Source: Burkholderiaceae bacterium (GTDB taxonomy: Bacteria > Pseudomonadota > Gammaproteobacteria > Burkholderiales > Burkholderiaceae_E). From it: 64,000 nucleotides of DNA. Each line of letters starts with the position of its first letter. Position 1 is the stretch's first letter. A model generated the notes under the pieces. The model worked only from the letters and a program-made list of their open reading frames with translations, had not been told where the DNA came from and did no database searches. Both the position numbers and the translations under genes were made by a program. Positions 48,948 to 64,000 of this stretch are shown here, in pieces. The DNA lies in the NCBI GenBank assembly GCA_021166725.1, contig JAJPES010000056.1, positions 1 through 64,000 of the forward strand, written 5' to 3'.

Positions 48948-50783
48948 ATGTACGTTCTTGGCCTCTCTGCCTATTACCACGACAGTGCCGCCGCGCTGGT
49001 GCACGACGGACGGATCGTCGCCGCTGCCCAGGAGGAACGCTTCACACGGAGAAAGCACGATGCAGGCTTTCCGGTGAACGCAGTCTCAGCGTGTTTGCGT
49101 CAGGCGAACATCGGGCTTTCGCAGGTGGATCTCGTCGCTTTCTACGACAAGCCGTTTCTCAAGTTCGAACGTCTGCTCGAAACGTACCTATCGTTCGCGC
49201 CGTCCGGATTCGCCTCTTTTCGCAAGGCGATGCCGGTGTGGCTGCGCGAGAAATTCTTCCTCAAGGATCTTCTCTGCCGTGAACTGCGCGCGCTTGACAA
49301 GGGGTTCCACGCACGCGAAAAGCTTCGCTTCTCCGAGCATCACCTGAGTCACGCTGCAAGCGCCTATTACCCGTCGCCTTTCGAGGAAGCGGCGGTCCTG
49401 ACGATGGATGGCGTCGGAGAATGGGCGACGACGTCGATCGCTCTTGGTCGCGGCACCGATCTGCGCCTTCACCGCGAGATCCATTTTCCTCATTCGATCG
49501 GGCTGCTCTATTCGGCTTTCACCTATTACACCGGCTTCAAGGTCAATTCGGGCGAATACAAGGTGATGGGTCTTGCCCCGTACGGAGAGCCGAAATACGC
49601 GAAGACGATTCTCGACAACGTCATCGACGTGAAGCCCGACGGCAGTTTTCGGCTCGACATGCAGTACTTCGACTATTGCACTGGGCTGCGAATGACGAAC
49701 GAGCGTTTTCATGCGCTGTTCGGTGGGCCTGCCCGGCAACCGGAAAAGGAACCCTTGACGCAGCGTCACATGGATCTGGCGGCGTCCATCCAGGCTGTCA
49801 CGGAGGAAGTCGTTCTCCGTCTCGTCCGGTCGATCGCGTCCGAAGGTTCGAGCCGGAATCTTTGCCTGGCGGGCGGCGTCGCCTTGAACTGCGTTGCCAA
49901 CGGCAAGGTGTTGCGCGACGGTCATTTTTCCCGGGTATGGATTCAACCAGCTGCCGGCGACGCAGGCGGAGCGCTGGGCGCGGCGCTGATCACATGTCAC
50001 ATGGGCGAGCGGCAGGAGCGTCGCGTCGGCGTCGGCGACGCGATGCAGGGCGGATACCTCGGGCCTTCGTTCGGGCAGGCGGAGATCGAGTCACGGCTGC
50101 GCAACGCGGGAGCCCGTTTCACGGTGCTTCAGAGTGACGCCCTGATCGACGAATGCGCCCGACTCCTCGCTGATGGTCAGGCGCTCGGCTGGTTCCAGGG
50201 GCGGATGGAATTCGGCCCGCGCGCGCTCGGAGGGCGATCGATCCTCGGCGACAGCCGTTCGCCGACGATGCAGAAGACGCTGAACCTGAAGGTGAAATAT
50301 CGGGAGTCTTTCCGGCCTTTTGCGCCTTCGATTCTGCGCGAAGACGTTGCCGAATGGTTCGAACTCGACGAAGACAGCCCTTACATGCTGATCGTCGCGG
50401 ATGTGATCGAGGGTCGCAGACGCGCGATGACGACGCAGGAACAGAGCCTGTTTGGAATCGACAAGCTGAACGTTCCGCGCTCGTCGATTCCTGCGGTGAC
50501 GCACGTGGATTATTCAGCGCGGATCCAGACCGTCCATCGCGAGACCAATCCGCGGTATCACGCGTTGCTCTCCGCGTTCAAGGCGCTCACCGGTTGCCCG
50601 GTTCTCGTCAATACCAGTTTCAACGTGCGTGGCGAGCCGATCGTCTGCACGCCTGAGGATGCTTTCCGCTGCTTCATGGGAACCGGGATTGAAGCGCTGG
50701 CAATTGGCAATTGCCTGCTGAGAAAAGGCGACCAGGATTCCTCGCTCGCCCGCGACTACGTCGCCCAGTTCGAGCTCGACTGA
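48948..50783 (+). CDS. Carbamoyltransferase (NodU/CmcH family)
   Basis: A 611-residue enzyme. The N-terminal ASKHA-fold domain starts MYVLGLSAYYHDSAAALVHD, with EHHLSHAASAYYPSPFEEAA and VLTMDGVGEWATTSIALGRG. The C-terminal YrdC-like carbamoyl-transfer domain contains GRMEFGPRALGGRSILGDSR and CPVLVNTSFNVRGEPIVCTP. Such enzymes make carbamoyl-adenylate from carbamoyl phosphate and ATP and transfer the group to a hydroxyl of a sugar or secondary metabolite. Its neighbours imply a polysaccharide target. Confidence 0.95.
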   Translation: MYVLGLSAYYHDSAAALVHDGRIVAAAQEERFTRRKHDAGFPVNAVSACLRQANIGLSQVDLVAFYDKPFLKFERLLETYLSFAPSGFASFRKAMPVWLREKFFLKDLLCRELRALDKGFHAREKLRFSEHHLSHAASAYYPSPFEEAAVLTMDGVGEWATTSIALGRGTDLRLHREIHFPHSIGLLYSAFTYYTGFKVNSGEYKVMGLAPYGEPKYAKTILDNVIDVKPDGSFRLDMQYFDYCTGLRMTNERFHALFGGPARQPEKEPLTQRHMDLAASIQAVTEEVVLRLVRSIASEGSSRNLCLAGGVALNCVANGKVLRDGHFSRVWIQPAAGDAGGALGAALITCHMGERQERRVGVGDAMQGGYLGPSFGQAEIESRLRNAGARFTVLQSDALIDECARLLADGQALGWFQGRMEFGPRALGGRSILGDSRSPTMQKTLNLKVKYRESFRPFAPSILREDVAEWFELDEDSPYMLIVADVIEGRRRAMTTQEQSLFGIDKLNVPRSSIPAVTHVDYSARIQTVHRETNPRYHALLSAFKALTGCPVLVNTSFNVRGEPIVCTPEDAFRCFMGTGIEALAIGNCLLRKGDQDSSLARDYVAQFELD

Positions 50784-50786
50784 AGC

Positions 50787-51899
50787 ATGTCTGCCCCTGA
50801 ACGCCTGTCCGCGCGCGCAAAAAGGGTTCTTGCGGCCGCGTTGGTGATCGTGGCGATCGTGATACTCATGGGCGGCGCGGAGATCGCGGTTCGTGTCCGG
50901 CAGGCGTGGAAGCACGGAACGTCGCTGACGCTCGATCAGATGTACGCGATCGACCCGGTGACGAAGTTACGGATACCCAAAGCCGGGGGAGACTTCGGTC
51001 GCATCCGGATCGACTCGCGCGGATTCAGAAACCCGGAACTCGTTGATCCGGAGCCTGCGGGAACCGTGCGCGTGGCATTCCTCGGCGCCTCGACCACGTT
51101 CTGCGCCGAGGTCAGTTCGAACGAAGCGACCTGGCCTCATCTGGTGACCGAGGCATTGCGTCGCCGATTCCCGGATACCCGGATCGATTACGTCAACGCA
51201 GGTGTTCCCGGCTACACGGTGGAGAGTTCGTTGGTCAATCTGAAGCAGAGAGTGGCGCCGCTCCGCCCCGACGTCATTGTCATCTACCATGCGACGAACG
51301 ATTTGTCGGGGGAGATCCGAGCCTTGGCAGGCAGCCGTGGGGTTGACATCGCGCCGCCTGAGGCTTCCTGGATCGCGCGCCGATCGCTCTTGTGGCTGCT
51401 CGTATCGAAGAACCTCACGGTACTTGCCGCTCAGCGGCGTGCTCAGTCGAGCGATGCGAGATACATCCCCATCGATCAGGGTCATCTCGGTAGCGCTTTC
51501 AAGAACCGACTCGGGAGCCTGGTTGAAGCCGCGAAAGGCACCGGCGCCGAGGTCGCCGTCGTCACCTTCACGACGCAAATGCGGCGAGATCAGGAACAGG
51601 AAGCCCGAAATCGCGCCATGCAAAGCGCGGTTCTCTACTCTCCTGGCGTCTCCTTCGACGGACTGATCGATAGTTTCGCGCGCTACAACGAGATCATCCG
51701 CGAGGTCGCAACTGAGAAGAAAGTGATTCTCGTGGGTGACGAGGACGCGGTACCCGGTGATTCGGATCACTTCGTCGATTCGGTACATTTCACCGATGCT
51801 GGGAGTCGAGCGCAAGCCGCGCGCGTCGCGGGGGCGCTGGCGGACCACTCGTCGATCGTCAATCGACTCGATCAGCTCAAAGTGCAGAGCGCCCACTAA
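50787..51899 (+). CDS. SGNH/GDSL hydrolase family protein
   Basis: A 370-residue protein with an N-terminal membrane anchor (VLAAALVIVAIVILMGGAEI). SGNH blocks are visible: block I VRVAFLGASTTFCAEVSSNE (GAS in place of GDS, serine kept), block III IYHATNDLSG (Asn) and block V DSVHFTDAGSRA (Asp and His). It is an esterase or acyltransferase-like enzyme facing the periplasm, likely acting on an O-acetyl or other ester of the polysaccharide. It starts 3 bp after the carbamoyltransferase and ends the four-gene cassette. Confidence 0.88.
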   Translation: MSAPERLSARAKRVLAAALVIVAIVILMGGAEIAVRVRQAWKHGTSLTLDQMYAIDPVTKLRIPKAGGDFGRIRIDSRGFRNPELVDPEPAGTVRVAFLGASTTFCAEVSSNEATWPHLVTEALRRRFPDTRIDYVNAGVPGYTVESSLVNLKQRVAPLRPDVIVIYHATNDLSGEIRALAGSRGVDIAPPEASWIARRSLLWLLVSKNLTVLAAQRRAQSSDARYIPIDQGHLGSAFKNRLGSLVEAAKGTGAEVAVVTFTTQMRRDQEQEARNRAMQSAVLYSPGVSFDGLIDSFARYNEIIREVATEKKVILVGDEDAVPGDSDHFVDSVHFTDAGSRAQAARVAGALADHSSIVNRLDQLKVQSAH

Positions 51900-57481: not shown

Positions 57482-58509
57482 GGCCGGGACGTCGCGCAGC
57501 GACCGCTCTGCCGCTTGCCCTGGGCTTCGCAGCGCTCGCGCGAACCGGCGCCGCGGCGCCCGCGGGGCGTACTGCGGGCCCGGTGGCGGAGCGCGCACCG
57601 GCGAAACGCACGATTCGAGTCGGATCCGGCGGAGATGTGCGCACGATCGCACAGGCTGCGTCGATCGCAGGCGACGGCGACGTCGTCGAGGTCGAGGCAG
57701 GAACCTATTCCGGCGACGTAGCCGTCTGGCGCCAGGCTTCGCTTGCGATCCGGGCGGTCGGTGGACGTGTGCGCCTGATTGCAGACGGGGCGAGCGCCGA
57801 AGAGAAGGCCATCTGGGTCATCCGCAACGGTGATTTCACGATCGAAGGATTCGAATTCGCAGGTGCGCGGGTTCCGGATGGAAACGGCGCGGGTATCCGC
57901 TTCGAACGCGGACGGCTGACCGTTCGCGATTCGCGCTTCCTGGACAACCAGATGGGGTTGCTCACCGGCAACGACGCCGGTTCGCGACTGATCGTGGAGC
58001 GCTGCGAGTTCAGCGGTCCGGTCGACGGCGCGCACTGGTATCACAACCTGTACGTCGGATTGATCGACAGCCTCGTCGTGCGCGAGAGCTGGTCACACAG
58101 CGCACGCGTCGGACACCTGTTGAAATCGAGGGCGCGGGTGAATCACGTGGTCGACAGTCGGCTCGTCGACGGCGACGGCACCGCGAGCTACGAGCTCGAG
58201 TTTCCGAACGGCGGAATCGCTCGCGTGCATGCAAACCTCATCGAGCAGTCGCCGCGTTCGAGCAATCCGGTCATCGTTTCGATCGGCGCCGAGGGGTACC
58301 GTTGGCCGGTGAACGAACTCGACATGAGCGACAACACGGTGGTGAACCGACGGCACGGTGCGGCGGTCTTCGTGCGCGCCGCCCTGGGACCGCTGCGCGC
58401 AACGCTCACGGGCAATACCTGGGTGGGGCGGGGGCAATTGGAGCTGCCGATCGAATACCGCGAGTCGGGGAATCGAAAGGTCGGCCTTGCCGACCACGCT
58501 CGCCGATGA
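57478..58509 (+). CDS. Right-handed parallel beta-helix repeat protein
   Basis: A 343-residue protein from GTG 57478. A signal-like hydrophobic start (ATALPLALGFAALARTGAAA) precedes beta-helix coils: TIRVGSGGDVRTIAQAASIA, VVEVEAGTYSGDVAVWRQAS, DFTIEGFEFAGARVPDGNGA and LTVRDSRFLDNQMGLLTGND. The fold is that of pectate lyase-like polysaccharide lyases and epimerases. It is probably a periplasmic enzyme acting on the polysaccharide made here. Overlaps both neighbours by 4 bp (GTGA and ATGA). Confidence 0.85.
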   Translation: MRPGRRAATALPLALGFAALARTGAAAPAGRTAGPVAERAPAKRTIRVGSGGDVRTIAQAASIAGDGDVVEVEAGTYSGDVAVWRQASLAIRAVGGRVRLIADGASAEEKAIWVIRNGDFTIEGFEFAGARVPDGNGAGIRFERGRLTVRDSRFLDNQMGLLTGNDAGSRLIVERCEFSGPVDGAHWYHNLYVGLIDSLVVRESWSHSARVGHLLKSRARVNHVVDSRLVDGDGTASYELEFPNGGIARVHANLIEQSPRSSNPVIVSIGAEGYRWPVNELDMSDNTVVNRRHGAAVFVRAALGPLRATLTGNTWVGRGQLELPIEYRESGNRKVGLADHARR

Positions 58510-60275
58510 CGATCGGCGCGCTTTCGGTTTGCCTCGGCGACGACGCGGCCGCGCAGGCTCGCGCGGTCCGCTCTTTCGAGCAGCAGGGCTTCGTTCCGTC
58601 GTTTCGACGGCAATGGAGCGGCGGTTCGGCGCAGCTTTGGCTGAATCGGGAGCGGGGCGGGAAGGCGACGGCGGTTCAGACCGCGTACGGCACGGCGTGT
58701 TCCGTGGGCCCGCTGTGGTACCGCGGCGCATTCGGGCAGGCGGCGCTCGAGCGCCTTCTGTTCGATGCGACGGCCGCGGGCGACGGGGCGCAAGGCGTCG
58801 ACGTACGGATTCCGCGCATCGACGAGACCGCGCTGCGCGGAAACTTCGCGCTCTTCCTCGAGACGTCACGCGGCCGCTGGTTGCTCAACGACCCGCTTGG
58901 CTTCGTGCGCATCCATCGAAGCCCCGACGGCAACTTCCACGGAACGAGCTGGCTGGCGACCCTTGCGTATGCCGGTACCACGACGCTGGATGCAGCGGCC
59001 GCCGCCGAGTACGTGCTGCTTGGCGCTTCGCATTCCGAGCGAACGCCGTTTGCCGGCGTCACGCGCCTGCCGCTCGGCCACCTCTTCGATCTTCAGGCGA
59101 AAGAGGACCGCCCGCGCTTCGCAGACGGACTCGCGCCCGCACCGCACGTTCGGTACGACTCGTTCGATGACGCGCTCGCGTCGATCGGCGCACAACTCGC
59201 GATCACCTTCGACGAGATCACGGCCGCCTTCCCCGGGCAAACGAGCGCCGCACTCTCGGGTGGTTTCGACTCGCGCCTGATCGTTGCCTCGTTGCTGGCC
59301 AAGGGCGAGCAGCCGCGGCTGTTCGTCTACGGTTCCGACACCAGCGACGACGTGCGCATCGCCCGCGAGATCGCCAATGGCGAGAAGCTGCCATTGCGCT
59401 GCTTTGACAAGTCGACGATGAACGAGCCCCTGCCCGAGTGCGAGGTCGAGGATCTCGTGCGCAACGCGCTCTTCTTCGACGGATTGCCGAACGACGGCAT
59501 CTACGATCGCGGGGCCGACAGGCTTACGCGCCTGGAGCAGAACGCGGACGGCTTTATTGCATTGAACGGCGGCGGCGGCGAAATCTTCCGCAACTTCTTT
59601 CACCTGCCCGATCGCACATACCGGCCGATAGACATCGTCCACGCCTTCTATCGCGGCTTCGACCCGATGGCGTTTCGCGACGCAGGCGGGCTTTCCGCCT
59701 ACGAGCACGGACTGGCAGCATCGATCGCGCGCGCCGCGGGCCTGGCGGCATCCGACGATCCGCTGCGGCAGCGAATGACTCGTGAACAGGTCGAGCTCGT
59801 GTACCCGTTCTTTCGCTGCCATCACTGGATGAGCGTGAACAACAGCCTGTCGATCCGCTATGGTCATTTCGCTACGCCGCTCGTCGATCTCCAGCTGGTT
59901 CGGCAGGCAGTAGCGCTGCCGTTGGCCTGGAAGAACGCCGGCGCTTTCGAGAGCCGCCTGATCGCCGAACGACACGCGGGTGTCGCCCGGCACGCGTCGA
60001 GCTACGGATTTCGCATTGCCGACGGCCCCGATGCGCGCGCGCGCCGCAGCGAGTGGCTGCACGGGCTGCGGCCGGTGACTTTACGGCCGCACATCGCGGC
60101 GCTGGGCCGCCGATTGCGGCGCGATCGGGTGTCGCCGGAACGCATTGCGAAGTGGCGCGCCAGGCTGCCCGGCGAATGGCGGCTCGATCCGGTGCTCGAC
60201 CTCGCTCGTCTCTCGGCCGACGGCGCGTTCGAGCGTGCGCTCTCCGTCGAGATCGTTGCTCGGGAGCTCGCATGA
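58506..60275 (+). CDS. Asparagine synthetase B homologue lacking the glutaminase cysteine
   Basis: A 589-residue protein with a full AsnB-like layout. The ATP pyrophosphatase loop is SAALSGGFDSRLIV (SGGFDSR at 251-257), and FIALNGGGGEIFRNFF is the usual GxGGDE-type segment. The N-terminal domain keeps FALFLETSRGRWLLNDPLGF but begins MTIGALSV, with Thr rather than Cys at position 2, so a normal glutaminase site is absent. Ammonia or a different amine donor may be used, or Thr2 may act after Met removal (speculative). Probably amidates a sugar carboxylate or a peptide in this locus. Confidence 0.85.
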   Translation: MTIGALSVCLGDDAAAQARAVRSFEQQGFVPSFRRQWSGGSAQLWLNRERGGKATAVQTAYGTACSVGPLWYRGAFGQAALERLLFDATAAGDGAQGVDVRIPRIDETALRGNFALFLETSRGRWLLNDPLGFVRIHRSPDGNFHGTSWLATLAYAGTTTLDAAAAAEYVLLGASHSERTPFAGVTRLPLGHLFDLQAKEDRPRFADGLAPAPHVRYDSFDDALASIGAQLAITFDEITAAFPGQTSAALSGGFDSRLIVASLLAKGEQPRLFVYGSDTSDDVRIAREIANGEKLPLRCFDKSTMNEPLPECEVEDLVRNALFFDGLPNDGIYDRGADRLTRLEQNADGFIALNGGGGEIFRNFFHLPDRTYRPIDIVHAFYRGFDPMAFRDAGGLSAYEHGLAASIARAAGLAASDDPLRQRMTREQVELVYPFFRCHHWMSVNNSLSIRYGHFATPLVDLQLVRQAVALPLAWKNAGAFESRLIAERHAGVARHASSYGFRIADGPDARARRSEWLHGLRPVTLRPHIAALGRRLRRDRVSPERIAKWRARLPGEWRLDPVLDLARLSADGAFERALSVEIVARELA

Positions 60276-61135
60276 CGGGATTCGACCGCATCGCGCGCTT
60301 CGAGGACTTCGACGGGCACCGCAGTCCCGTGCTGCGCTGGCGGCCGCGAGGCAGGGTGCGCGCCCAGGCGGTGTTCTTTGCGCCCTGGGGCGACGAGATG
60401 AACCAGTCGCGCCGCATGTTCCGGCTCGCTGCCGAGGCGCTGGCAGCGCGCGGCGTCGGTGGCCGGATGTTCGACCTGCTCGGCACCGGCGACAGCAGCG
60501 CGGATTTCCGCGAGGCGACGGTTGCGGCGTGGTTGTCCGATTGCCGGCGGATGGTCGACGCGGCGCAGCGGGAAGGCGGGCCGGTAATCCTGGTCGGCTG
60601 TCGCCTCGGCGTAGCCCTGGCTGTGCAGGCGAGCGAGATGCTCGTGCATCCCGCCGCCTTGCTGGTCGGGTGGGCGCCTGTCCTGCAGGGAAACCAGCAG
60701 CTCGGCGCATTGCTGCGAGTGACAAGGATCGCCCGCATGAACCGGCCGCAGATGCCGGATCCGAAGGCACTGTGGGCGGCAGGCGAACTCGCGTGGCTGG
60801 CCGGCTATCCGGTATCCGCGACGCTCGCGGACCAGCTCGCGGCGCTGGATGCGACGAGTGCACCGCGGGCGGAACGCGCCGCATTGTTCGAATTGCGCGG
60901 CGCGCAGGACGACGCGCCGTTGCACGCCTCGGAAGGATTGCGTCGCCGCGCGCACGCCTGGGCGGCGCGGGGCGTTCCCACGCAGGCGCTTGCGTTGCCG
61001 GGCCCGGCCTTCTGGAACGTCGCCGATCTCGTGGATGTTCCGCGACTGCTCGAGTTGACGGTCGATTGCGTCGAGGAGGCGCTGGAAGGTGTGACTGGTC
61101 ACGTCCTGCGTTCGGAAGTGAAGCAGCCTGACTGA
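60272..61135 (+). CDS. Exosortase A system-associated hydrolase 2-like
   Basis: A 287-residue alpha/beta-hydrolase-like protein. RAQAVFFAPWGDEMNQSRRM, VGGRMFDLLGTGDSSADFRE and VILVGCRLGVALAVQ closely follow the hydrolase 2 pattern (EEMNKSRRM; DLxGxGDSxGDF). The elbow reads GCRLG, again without a plain catalytic serine. It starts in an ATGA overlap with the asparagine-synthetase homologue, and its end is 45 bp from the convergent Mur-ligase/Pth gene. It is more canonical than the copy at 37786-38601. Confidence 0.82.
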   Translation: MTGFDRIARFEDFDGHRSPVLRWRPRGRVRAQAVFFAPWGDEMNQSRRMFRLAAEALAARGVGGRMFDLLGTGDSSADFREATVAAWLSDCRRMVDAAQREGGPVILVGCRLGVALAVQASEMLVHPAALLVGWAPVLQGNQQLGALLRVTRIARMNRPQMPDPKALWAAGELAWLAGYPVSATLADQLAALDATSAPRAERAALFELRGAQDDAPLHASEGLRRRAHAWAARGVPTQALALPGPAFWNVADLVDVPRLLELTVDCVEEALEGVTGHVLRSEVKQPD

Positions 61136-61179: not shown

Positions 61180-63093
61180 TCAACGCGCGGACGCGATTTC
61201 GTGCTGGCTCCGCTCGGTCATCAACTCGAGCGTCAAGCGTTCCGCGGTGGCCAGCCCTGCGGCGAGAATCGTATCGTCGCGAGTGTCAGTACGCGAGAGA
61301 ACGAACTCGGACGCCTGTTGGCCTTCTCCCCGTCCACGTACGCCCACTCGCACTCGGCGAATCACGTCTGTCGAAAGCGCCTGCAGAATCGACCGCATAC
61401 CCTTGTGACCTGCGTCGCCTCCGTTGCGTTTGACCCGAGCCCTTCCGAGTGGAAGATCGGCGTCGTCAAGAACCACGATGCAATCACTCGCCTGGTACCC
61501 GCATTCCTCTAGATAGGCGCTCAAGCCGTTCCCACTGCAATTCATCGGCTGATCCAGCTTCAACAGAATGGCCGGGGAACCGTCTATAGACAGCCTGGCT
61601 TCCAGCCCGTGGCGTCCGGTGGCCCACGAAGCGCCAGTTCGTTCGGCGAGCCGATCGAGCACCAGTTGGCCGACGTTGTGAACCGTGTGCCGATACCGGT
61701 CGCCCGGATTTCCGAGCCCGACGACGATCGTGGCCGAGCCTGGCCGCGGCGCGCTGCCGGTTGCGGTCGATGCCGGTGTGCGGGCAGTGGCCGGCGCGGT
61801 GGGCCCGGCGAACTCCGAAACCGGTGTCCAGGCGCGGGGGCATTCGTCACAGAACATGATCTTTCGACAGGAGGATTCCCAGCACTGCACTGCCTTGCGC
61901 CGATCGAGCAGGATGCGAACCAGGTGATCGGCCTTGTTGGTGCCCTTCAACAGGACAACATCGCCACTGCGCAACTCGCTCCTCAGGAACGCCGCAGCGT
62001 CTCTGGTCGACGGATAGAGCCGCAAGGATCCGTCGCTCCGAATGCGGTTCGCGCGTTCCGTGCTGATCGTATGCGGGCCGACGAGCAGAACGAGGTCCGC
62101 TACCTCCAGCGCGGCACGAGCGGCTTTCGCGTAGCGACGTGCCGGTTCGTTGGGCGTGTCGGAGATCGTTCCGATTACCGCCACTTTTCTTCGCGCGTGC
62201 GCTTCGCGCAGGAAGTCCAGCGGCGCCTGTAGCGACCACTGCGGTGCCTTGAAGTCGTCGCGTACGAAAGTGACGCCGTCTTCGAGCGTTTCAACCTGCA
62301 TCCTGCCGGGGCTGTTCGTTGCCCCGCCGAGAGCCTCGAGTGCATCGTCGATTCGAACGTCCGCAGCCAACCCGACCCCAAGCGCGCACAGCAGCGAGGT
62401 AACGAGTTGCATCCCGTGCAAGCGCGTTATTAACTCGTAGCGCTTGCCTTCGAACTCCACGACCAGCGTCAACGGCGCCGGCCAGGCCGATTGCGCGTCG
62501 ATCAGGCGAACCGTCGCGCCCTCGTCTCTGCCGACCCATATCGTCGGGCCGGCGCGACTCTCCCCGATCGCGCGCACCTGTGGATCGTCGCGGTTAAGCA
62601 CGGCAACCCCACCCGGTGGAAGGGCGTCGATCAGCTTGCGCTTCTCCGCCGCGATCGCATCGATGCTTCGAAATGCGGAGAAGTGCTCCAACGCGACTAC
62701 TGTAAGCACGGCGATACGGGGTCGTACCACTCGGATCGATCGATTCAGATAGTCGGGTTCCGACGCGCTCATCTCGACCACGCAGAACCGATGCTCGCGT
62801 CGAGTCGACAGGACCGTCTCCTCGACGCGACTATGCTCGTTTCCCGATCGATCGCTGCACTGGCACTCGCCGAGAGTGGATAGAACCCGTGTCGCGAAGT
62901 CCTTCGTCGAGGTCTTGCCGGCACTGCCGGTGATCCCGACGAAGAGCACATTCGACAGATGCTTTCGATGAAGGAACGCGTGAAAGTGCCGCTTGCGATC
63001 GTTCAAGGCCCAGTGCAGGCCCCGCCCGAGCCTAGCCGCGGAGGCCCCCAACGCTTGCGCGTATGCGACAGGGTCCACGTCGTTGCCTCCCAT
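61180..63093 (-). CDS. Mur ligase family protein fused to a peptidyl-tRNA hydrolase-like domain
   Basis: A 637-residue protein from ATG 63093 (GGAGGAGA upstream). Residues about 1-400 are a Mur ligase: P-loop LFVGITGSAGKTSTKD (about 51-65), RFCVVEMSASEPDYL, TVVALEHFSAFRSIDAIAAE KR and the C-terminal VAVIGTISD and VLLKGTNKADH. A four-Cys motif follows (Cys404, 409, 415, 418), then a Pro/Ala/Thr linker. Residues 455-637 are a Pth domain: GLGNPGDRYRHTVHNVG (catalytic Asn and His), QPMNCSGNGL and DDADLPLG (Asp); the motif usually GHNG reads GHKG (Asn to Lys). Function of the fusion is unknown. Confidence 0.88.
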   Translation of the reverse strand: MGGNDVDPVAYAQALGASAARLGRGLHWALNDRKRHFHAFLHRKHLSNVLFVGITGSAGKTSTKDFATRVLSTLGECQCSDRSGNEHSRVEETVLSTRREHRFCVVEMSASEPDYLNRSIRVVRPRIAVLTVVALEHFSAFRSIDAIAAEKRKLIDALPPGGVAVLNRDDPQVRAIGESRAGPTIWVGRDEGATVRLIDAQSAWPAPLTLVVEFEGKRYELITRLHGMQLVTSLLCALGVGLAADVRIDDALEALGGATNSPGRMQVETLEDGVTFVRDDFKAPQWSLQAPLDFLREAHARRKVAVIGTISDTPNEPARRYAKAARAALEVADLVLLVGPHTISTERANRIRSDGSLRLYPSTRDAAAFLRSELRSGDVVLLKGTNKADHLVRILLDRRKAVQCWESSCRKIMFCDECPRAWTPVSEFAGPTAPATARTPASTATGSAPRPGSATIVVGLGNPGDRYRHTVHNVGQLVLDRLAERTGASWATGRHGLEARLSIDGSPAILLKLDQPMNCSGNGLSAYLEECGYQASDCIVVLDDADLPLGRARVKRNGGDAGHKGMRSILQALSTDVIRRVRVGVRGRGEGQQASEFVLSRTDTRDDTILAAGLATAERLTLELMTERSQHEIASAR

Positions 63094-63193: not shown

Positions 63194-64000
63194 TTGTCCC
63201 AGATCGACCCGTCGCCCTCCTTCTTCGATGAAACGTTGCTCACCGTTCCCGGCGCCGGGCGCGAGTTGTTGGGCGTTCTCGCGTGTCCCGCTCGGAATGC
63301 GCCGCAGCACGCGACCGGCGTCGTCATCGTCGTCGGCGGACCGCAAACGCGTGTTGGCTCGCATCGCCAGTTCGTCCTTCTCGCCCGCGCACTGGCGGGC
63401 GCGGGTTATCCGTGCCTGCGCTTCGACTACACCGGAATGGGCGACAGCTGCGGTCCGAAACCCGACTTCGAAGCCGCCGGAGACGACATCCGGCGCGCCT
63501 GCGACGCGCTGCTGGCTGCCGCTCCCGGGTGCCGGCGCATCGTGTTGTGGGGCCTGTGCGATGGCGCGACGGCCGCCGTGTTCCACGCCGTTACCGACGA
63601 GCGCGTGACGCGCGTGATCGCGGCGAATCCGTGGGCACGCGGAGACTCGACGCGATCCGCGGCGCTCGTGAAAACGCACTACCGCTCGCGACTGCGCTCC
63701 GCGGAGTTCTGGAAGAAGCTGGCCAGCGGCGGCATCGACGTGGTCGCCACGGTGAAAGAGCTGATCGGACACGTCGCGCGTGCGCGAAGCGGGCGGCGCG
63801 AAGGCGACGCGGCCAGCAGCGAGCAACCGAACCTGCCGCAGCGCTTCGCAACGGCGCTTCGACAGATCCGGACGCGGGTCCACCTGCAATTGAGCGGCAA
63901 CGATCTCACGGCGGCCGAGTTCGAAGTGGCGATGAAGACCGCCGGGCTTGCCGATGAGCTGGCGGCATCCGAATTGCGCCTCCCCGAGGCGGATCACACG
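63194..64000 (+). CDS. Exosortase A system-associated hydrolase 1 (partial, runs off the right edge)
   Basis: An open frame of 269 codons to the window end. There is no ATG; TTG 63194 is the likely start (LSQIDPSPSFFDETLL), the frame being closed at 63143. GVVIVVGGPQTRVGSHRQFV, LLARALAGAGYPCLRFDYTG MGDS and IVLWGLCDGATAAVFHAV are diagnostic of exosortase hydrolase 1 with a Cys nucleophile in GLCDGA. Divergent from the Mur-ligase/Pth gene with a 100-bp gap. In known loci it neighbours further exosortase and EPS genes, expected beyond 64 kb. Confidence 0.85.
   Translation, partial: MSQIDPSPSFFDETLLTVPGAGRELLGVLACPARNAPQHATGVVIVVGGPQTRVGSHRQFVLLARALAGAGYPCLRFDYTGMGDSCGPKPDFEAAGDDIRRACDALLAAAPGCRRIVLWGLCDGATAAVFHAVTDERVTRVIAANPWARGDSTRSAALVKTHYRSRLRSAEFWKKLASGGIDVVATVKELIGHVARARSGRREGDAASSEQPNLPQRFATALRQIRTRVHLQLSGNDLTAAEFEVAMKTAGLADELAASELRLPEADHT

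Follow-up and report, generated by a model that had tools for sequence, protein, structure and literature searches.

Introduction

What use does a cell have for a protein that is half Mur ligase and half peptidyl-tRNA hydrolase (Pth), and why does its gene lie among exosortase-associated genes? The question is raised by a 637-residue open reading frame (ORF) in the stretch analyzed here, positions 1 to 64,000 of the forward strand of contig JAJPES010000056.1 (assembly GCA_021166725.1, Burkholderiaceae bacterium), to which we refer in its full length of 64,000 nucleotides as the window. An earlier note, made from the letters of the window, had described a Mur ligase-Pth fusion inside an exopolysaccharide/exosortase locus and had suggested a machine that takes aminoacyl groups from tRNA and attaches them to a polysaccharide precursor. 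We found that the window protein belongs to a conserved family of Mur-fold amide ligases, the majority of which carry a joined Pth, and that this family occurs in exosortase A/exopolysaccharide loci. As to mechanism, we tentatively favor a scheme, held with somewhat less than even confidence, in which the Mur half would join a carboxylate to an aminoacyl-tRNA and the Pth half would release the product from the tRNA.

A Mur Ligase and a Pth Domain Share One Conserved Reading Frame

The single-frame architecture described earlier was confirmed, with Mur_ligase_M, Mur_ligase_C, a four-cysteine (Cys4) motif, a linker and Pth following one another (Table 1), and both fold assignments were borne out by Pfam and NCBIfam matches together with the fold. 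The two Mur Pfam domains score over cut-off and the P-loop (GSAGKT) is intact, as in members of the Mur ligase superfamily, while the Pth half is complete and has both a Pth1 profile match over cut-off (PF01195/TIGR00447 type) and the corresponding fold. The N-terminus is a single helix (residues 8-44) before Mur_ligase_M; there is no N-terminal UDP-binding domain, and the murF profile aligned only from position 70 of 418. The ligase half comes closest to MurF and matches MurF, MurC and MurE structures (including PDB 4qf5). Identity with MurF itself was ruled out, given the missing UDP-binding domain and a score of 168.1 bits to NCBIfam murF (TIGR01143), below the curated cut-off of 288.6.

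To define the family, a scan for homologues covered one genome per species (84,980 species) and returned 52 loci. With membership set at 250 bits or more to the profile of alignment A1, there are 55 members in 41 loci; the 11 loci below 250 bits (L071-L081) hold other Mur ligases and were used as controls, among them a remote Mur ligase with a similar Cys pattern (L078). Pth follows in frame in 45 of the 55 members, that is, in 33 of the 41 loci, and since the same fusion is thus carried by other genomes, the assembly artefact that the earlier note had named as a refutation is ruled out. Residue counts below refer to a 46-row alignment of 44 other fused members and the two copies of the window's genome; one locus with undetermined letters (L067) is counted among the 45 fused proteins but omitted from this alignment, the residue counts and the trees. 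Loci L026 and L027 both come from the window's genome, and L030 and G002 are the same genome.

The second fusion of the window's genome lies on the same contig (101064-102791) and is 50% identical to the window protein; it is adjoined by a second MurF-like ligase (L026:9441-10955 (-)) that scores 267.7 bits to a MurF model, under the cut-off. One congeneric genome also carries a fusion, with 52% identity. Hosts are mainly Beta- and Gammaproteobacteria, including Nitrosomonas, Marinobacter, Thauera, Azoarcus, Haliea, Rhodoferax and Propionivibrio. The family is nonetheless rare, reaching E <= 1e-60 in 5 of 369 class-sample genomes, the window's included; judged by frame length, ORFs long enough for the fusion occur in three of those five, and among class genomes other than the window's, G483 and G519 have long frames. 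Seven loci have two to four fused copies side by side, with four each in L051 and L060.

The Fusion Lies in Exosortase A/Exopolysaccharide Loci

The exopolysaccharide/exosortase setting proposed for the window also held, as matches over cut-off were found to TIGR03100 next door, to TIGR03097 nearby and to exosortase A (XrtA), whose gene is on the contig of both fusions, at a distance of 5.3 kb from the second one and 45 kb from that of the window. Directly beyond the window edge are a clear AsnB-type protein, a UDP-sugar dehydrogenase family protein (at approximately 67.4-68.7 kb of the contig), which is a possible source of uronic acids, and the exosortase-associated O-ligase that matches TIGR03097.

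We then considered the neighbors of 44 family loci, 5 of which span less than 13 kb. Genes for sugar-transfer-associated ATP-grasp proteins (PF14397, ATPgrasp_ST) were found in 21 of these loci and in none of the 11 control loci, flippases in 17 and XrtA-type AsnB in 14; all 16 neighbor families tested were absent from the control loci with other Mur ligases, although, because the families were picked for recurring in these loci, the counts are descriptive, involve no test and ignore common ancestry. The PF14397 genes beside the fusions are sometimes paired (e.g., L061:11572-12747 (-)) and may share a pathway. XrtA passes its cut-off in 21 of 26 fusion genomes, as against 67 of 338 class-sample genomes, and an exosortase match of any kind at E <= 0.001 occurs in 25 of 26 and 105 of 338, respectively. 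Of the 25 fusion genomes in which an exosortase was matched, 11 have it on the contig of a fusion, the closest pairs being 5-32 kb apart; contig sharing was judged by eye and distances were computed, and the exosortases of G566 and G569 are below the XrtA cut-off.

Table 1. Coordinates of the fusion ORF, its parts and adjacent genes in the window.
Feature	Position	Strand	Remarks
Whole fusion ORF, 637 aa	61180..63093	(-)	ATG at 63093, stop 61180-61182; same layout in homologues
Mur_ligase_M, residues 54-240	62374..62934	(-)	Pfam match over cut-off
P-loop GITGSAGKT, residues 53-61	62911..62937	(-)	K60 in 46/46 fused copies
Mur_ligase_C, residues 263-385	61939..62307	(-)	Pfam match over cut-off
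Signature loop F-x-R-D-D-x-K-A-P-x-W-S, residues 276-287	62233..62268	(-)	F276, R278, D280, K282 in 46/46
Cys4 motif C-x4-C-x5-C-x2-C, residues 404-418	61840..61884	(-)	Four Cys in 46/46
Flexible linker, residues 419-455	61729..61839	(-)	Predicted local distance difference test (pLDDT) < 50 at 430-447
Pth domain, residues 456-628	61210..61728	(-)	Pfam/NCBIfam over cut-off, and fold
GHKG, residues 562-565	61399..61410	(-)	Lys in place of N114 of E. coli Pth
Hydrolase 1, exosortase A system-associated	63194..64000, runs off window	(+)	TIGR03100, 251.7 bits, over cut-off 168.45
Hydrolase 2, exosortase A system-associated	60374..61135	(+)	TIGR03101, 133.7 bits, under cut-off 202.75
Weak asparagine-synthase-like protein	58302..60275	(+)	19.3 bits, under cut-off

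Most Active-Site Residues Are Conserved in Both Halves

All 46 rows agree in the Mur half at the P-loop Lys, E107, H137, E150, R278, D280, K282 and the four Cys. The Cys4 motif is located between the two domains, as the earlier note had said, with 24-49 residues separating it from Pth in the 46 fused members, but it is not tied to Pth: the strict motif is kept in 7 of 10 unfused family members and in the unfused G177 protein. By this distribution, it is a trait of the ligase family.

In the Pth half, the catalytic positions reported for the window protein are kept throughout the family, with N10, H20, N21, N68, H113 and R131 invariant (46/46) and D93 present in 45 of 46 (Glu in one). In addition, K103, K105 and R133 are each Lys or Arg in 45 of 46. 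In the examined portion of the review PMC11202043, N10 is said to select N-blocked over free aminoacyl-tRNA, K103, K105 and R133 to hold the 5′ phosphate of the tRNA, and N114 to help place the water and the carbonyl. Apart from the exceptions listed in the next section, the ligase and hydrolase active sites of the family are intact. A purely sensory or passenger role, in which the Pth half would bind tRNA and tie polysaccharide synthesis to amino-acid supply with no catalysis in the pathway, seems very unlikely, as the conservation of N10, H20, N68 and D93 points to retained catalysis.

A Possible Ligate-Then-Release Mechanism

The immediate product of the ligase makes most sense as an N-acyl-aminoacyl-tRNA, because the Pth that is tied to this amide ligase keeps both the residue for N-blocked substrates and the tRNA clamp. 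In the scheme that we favor, the MurF-like half would phosphorylate, with ATP, a carboxylate borne by a sugar or a lipid-linked sugar; the carboxylate in question could be that of a uronic acid or the terminal one of an amino acid added earlier. The amino group of an aminoacyl-tRNA would then attack the acyl phosphate, and the resulting N-acyl-aminoacyl-tRNA would be passed by the flexible linker to the Pth half, where cleavage of the ester would separate the tRNA from the aminoacylated product and leave the latter with a new free carboxylate. Tandem paralogues might each add one residue, much as MurC-F do in peptidoglycan. The use of aminoacyl-tRNA, the order of the steps, the sugar carboxylate as acceptor and the addition of one residue per copy are the parts of the scheme that we infer. 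A uronic acid or an amino-acid-bearing sugar is suggested as acceptor by the sugar setting and the nearby UDP-sugar dehydrogenase, and ligation before release would account for the presence of a Pth in every fused tandem copy.

The machine proposed in the earlier note is compatible with this scheme in linking aminoacyl-tRNA with a Mur-type amide ligase, but its order of steps is revised here, since ligation first and release second fits better with an N10 kept in all 46 fused Pths, given the selectivity attributed to that residue in the part of PMC11202043 cited above. In the order first suggested, Pth would strip aminoacyl- or peptidyl-tRNA of its amino acid or short peptide and hand these to the Mur ligase for attachment; in the peptidyl version, these would be recycled peptides from ribosome drop-off. 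The resemblance of the ligase half to MurF would suit such an order, and MurF itself attaches a dipeptide; the conserved catalytic residues of Pth and its tethering to the ligase would suit it as well. However, free amino acids are generally known to be plentiful in the cell, the separate Pth of every tandem fused copy would have no clear use, and Pth is said to discriminate against unblocked aminoacyl-tRNA (PMC11202043, in the same portion). We consider this order improbable.

Several observations weigh against the ligate-then-release scheme. The Lys that the earlier note had seen in place of the GHNG Asn of the window protein is indeed there, but it is a family signature rather than a peculiarity of this protein: Asn is found at position 114 in none of the 46 fused Pths (Arg in 30, Lys in 10, Leu in 4, Trp and Thr in 1 each; Arg or Lys in 40), as compared with 28 of 30 housekeeping Pths; of these 30, 26 came from fusion genomes, and Asn is present in all of the 26 but L089, which has Lys. 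F66 is replaced in 44 of 46 (by Tyr in two), leaving Phe or Tyr in only 4, and the lid residue K142 is variable, so the substrate or the activity of Pth may have shifted. In the Mur half, the position that seems to match the carbamylated Lys of MurF is Lys in the window protein and in 37 of 46 rows, but Met, Val or Ile in nine, all from L051, L052, L056, L059, L060 and L061. Moreover, five proteobacterial members without Pth (the first copy of Nitrosomonas L039, the second copy of L041, G177, Marinobacter piscensis L045 and Kineobactrum L044) are nested among fused ones on the Mur-half tree, from which it follows that the ligase can do without a fused Pth; the second copy of L041, truncated near a contig end, is an uncertain case. 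No tRNA genes were found in 33 of the 35 sources scanned, and hence no dedicated tRNA was seen; the only two were in the window, 57 kb from the fusion, and in L037, overlapping the end of the ORF. Finally, the XrtA enrichment given above, which speaks for the scheme, compares genomes of two collections and ignores their shared ancestry.

A repurposed hydrolase is conceivable in view of the loss of N114 and, in most copies, of F66, the relatives without Pth, the nine copies lacking the putative carbamate Lys and the lack of any dedicated tRNA gene. Under this alternative, which we judge unlikely though deserving of attention, the Pth half would have ceased to act on tRNA and would trim or edit the sugar product at an aminoacyl or acyl group, and the Mur half would use free amino acids, as other Mur ligases do. 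The change of R19 to Pro in 38 of 46 and the variable lid would be in keeping with it. On the other hand, the 5′-phosphate positions are basic in 45 of 46 each and N10 is invariant, a retention that would be unexpected if the domain no longer met tRNA.

Returning to the ligate-then-release scheme, a more doubtful extension of it is that the fusions may represent an undescribed class of aminoacyl-tRNA-dependent amide ligase, a Mur-fold enzyme with built-in Pth, and that its tandem copies may form a ribosome-independent, tRNA-fed assembly line, building the aminoacyl or short-peptide part of an exopolysaccharide or of the compound to which the exosortase attaches PEP-CTERM proteins. The fusion suggests that some bacteria may decorate their slime sugars with amino acids supplied by the protein-making machinery. 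If the proposed mechanism holds, a cell-wall-type ligase would channel tRNA-charged amino acids into surface polysaccharide, a route absent from those parts of the literature that were examined, and Pth would gain a biosynthetic role as a product-release domain.

History of the Fusion

The Mur-half tree places the members from Actinomycetota, Planctomycetota, Verrucomicrobiota and Acidobacteriota, none of which is fused, outside the fused groups, and an unfused Kiritimatiellota member (L062; long branch, without Cys4) at the base of an otherwise mainly fused group. At least 7 state changes are needed on this tree and many of its deep forks are open, so that the tree alone does not date the fusion. 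The 46 fused Pth domains form one clade relative to the 30 housekeeping Pths (Shimodaira-Hasegawa-like approximate likelihood ratio test, SH-aLRT, 99.7), and the Mur and Pth halves correlate in pairwise identity (r = 0.87), both as expected for one old fusion. The simplest reading of these trees and identities is a single fusion followed by several losses. Of the fusion genomes, 26 were tested, namely the window's and those belonging to 25 of the 33 fused loci, and every one of them has a separate housekeeping Pth; among seven genomes with unfused members only, six hold one Pth and none was found in the seventh.

Comparison with Known Systems

The family differs from MurF and other Mur ligases in the lack of the N-terminal UDP-binding domain, its own RDDxKAPxWS loop, the Cys4 tail and the fused Pth, and its Pths differ from Pth1 in the universal replacement of N114, the loss of F66 in most, their separate clade and their presence beside a housekeeping Pth. 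The GHKG form is not confined to fusions, as a housekeeping Pth (L089, from G572, the L040 genome) also has Lys at 114. With MurT of the MurT/GatD pair, as it appears in the accessible text of PMC6113224, the ligase half shares a truncated Mur N-terminus and a Cys4 element; there, however, Cys4 is inserted in the middle domain and the enzyme works with GatD, whereas in the fusion it follows Mur_ligase_C, by which identity with MurT was ruled out.

In the chemistry proposed for it, the fusion resembles the LanB-like peptide aminoacyl-tRNA ligases (PEARLs), which, according to the portions of PMC12945691 and PMC11962472 at hand, activate a peptide carboxylate with ATP, condense it with aminoacyl-tRNA and hydrolyze the tRNA ester. 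The folds are unrelated, as the fusion is not LanB-like with an ATP-grasp-like site but matches Mur structures in its ligase half. No separate Pth domain figures in those portions of the PEARL descriptions, whereas the fusion has a putative dedicated release domain, and PEARLs work on a peptide scaffold, whereas the substrate of the fusion is probably a sugar.

A further parallel is the Wbp/Vim linking-sugar pathway of the type IX secretion system (T9SS), in which, according to the available part of PMC7468200, an AsnB-type amidotransferase, a putative deacetylase and a presumed aminoacyl transferase give an amino-acid-modified uronic acid or uronamide. The presumed agent of amino-acid addition there is VimA (N-acetyltransferase/FemAB-like), and neither a Mur ligase nor a Pth appears in that part of the description. 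The same text proposes that exosortase systems may also use an amino-acid-modified sugar, which makes the Mur-Pth fusion pathway a natural candidate. If the ligate-then-release mechanism is right, the family would offer a concrete handle on the attachment point of PEP-CTERM proteins, an open question in exosortase research to which an amino-acid-modified sugar is one suggested answer (PMC7468200, same part).

A search of the open-access literature, judged by title and the start of the abstract among the matches listed, found no description of a Mur ligase-Pth fusion. All three fusions scanned score over the NCBIfam pth cut-off, so automatic annotation could call them plain aminoacyl-tRNA hydrolases and thereby mask the family.

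Other Observations

In both L051 and L060, copies with and without the putative carbamate Lys stand side by side in one tandem array. The tRNA gene of L037 (Pseudothauera rhizosphaerae; L037:11782-11866 (-)) is a tRNA-Leu (anticodon TAG) on the strand opposite to the fusion ORF, whose 3′ end it overlaps. Elsewhere in the window, a carbamoyltransferase gene (48948-50783 (+)) is followed by a GDSL-type hydrolase gene (50787-51899 (+)). Unfused relatives in Solirubrobacter and Streptomyces (L066 and L069, approximately 1-13 kb; ten proteins scanned) lie in look-alike clusters with radical SAM, AMP-ligase-like, glyoxalase-fold and further enzymes, which perhaps represent an undescribed small-molecule pathway.
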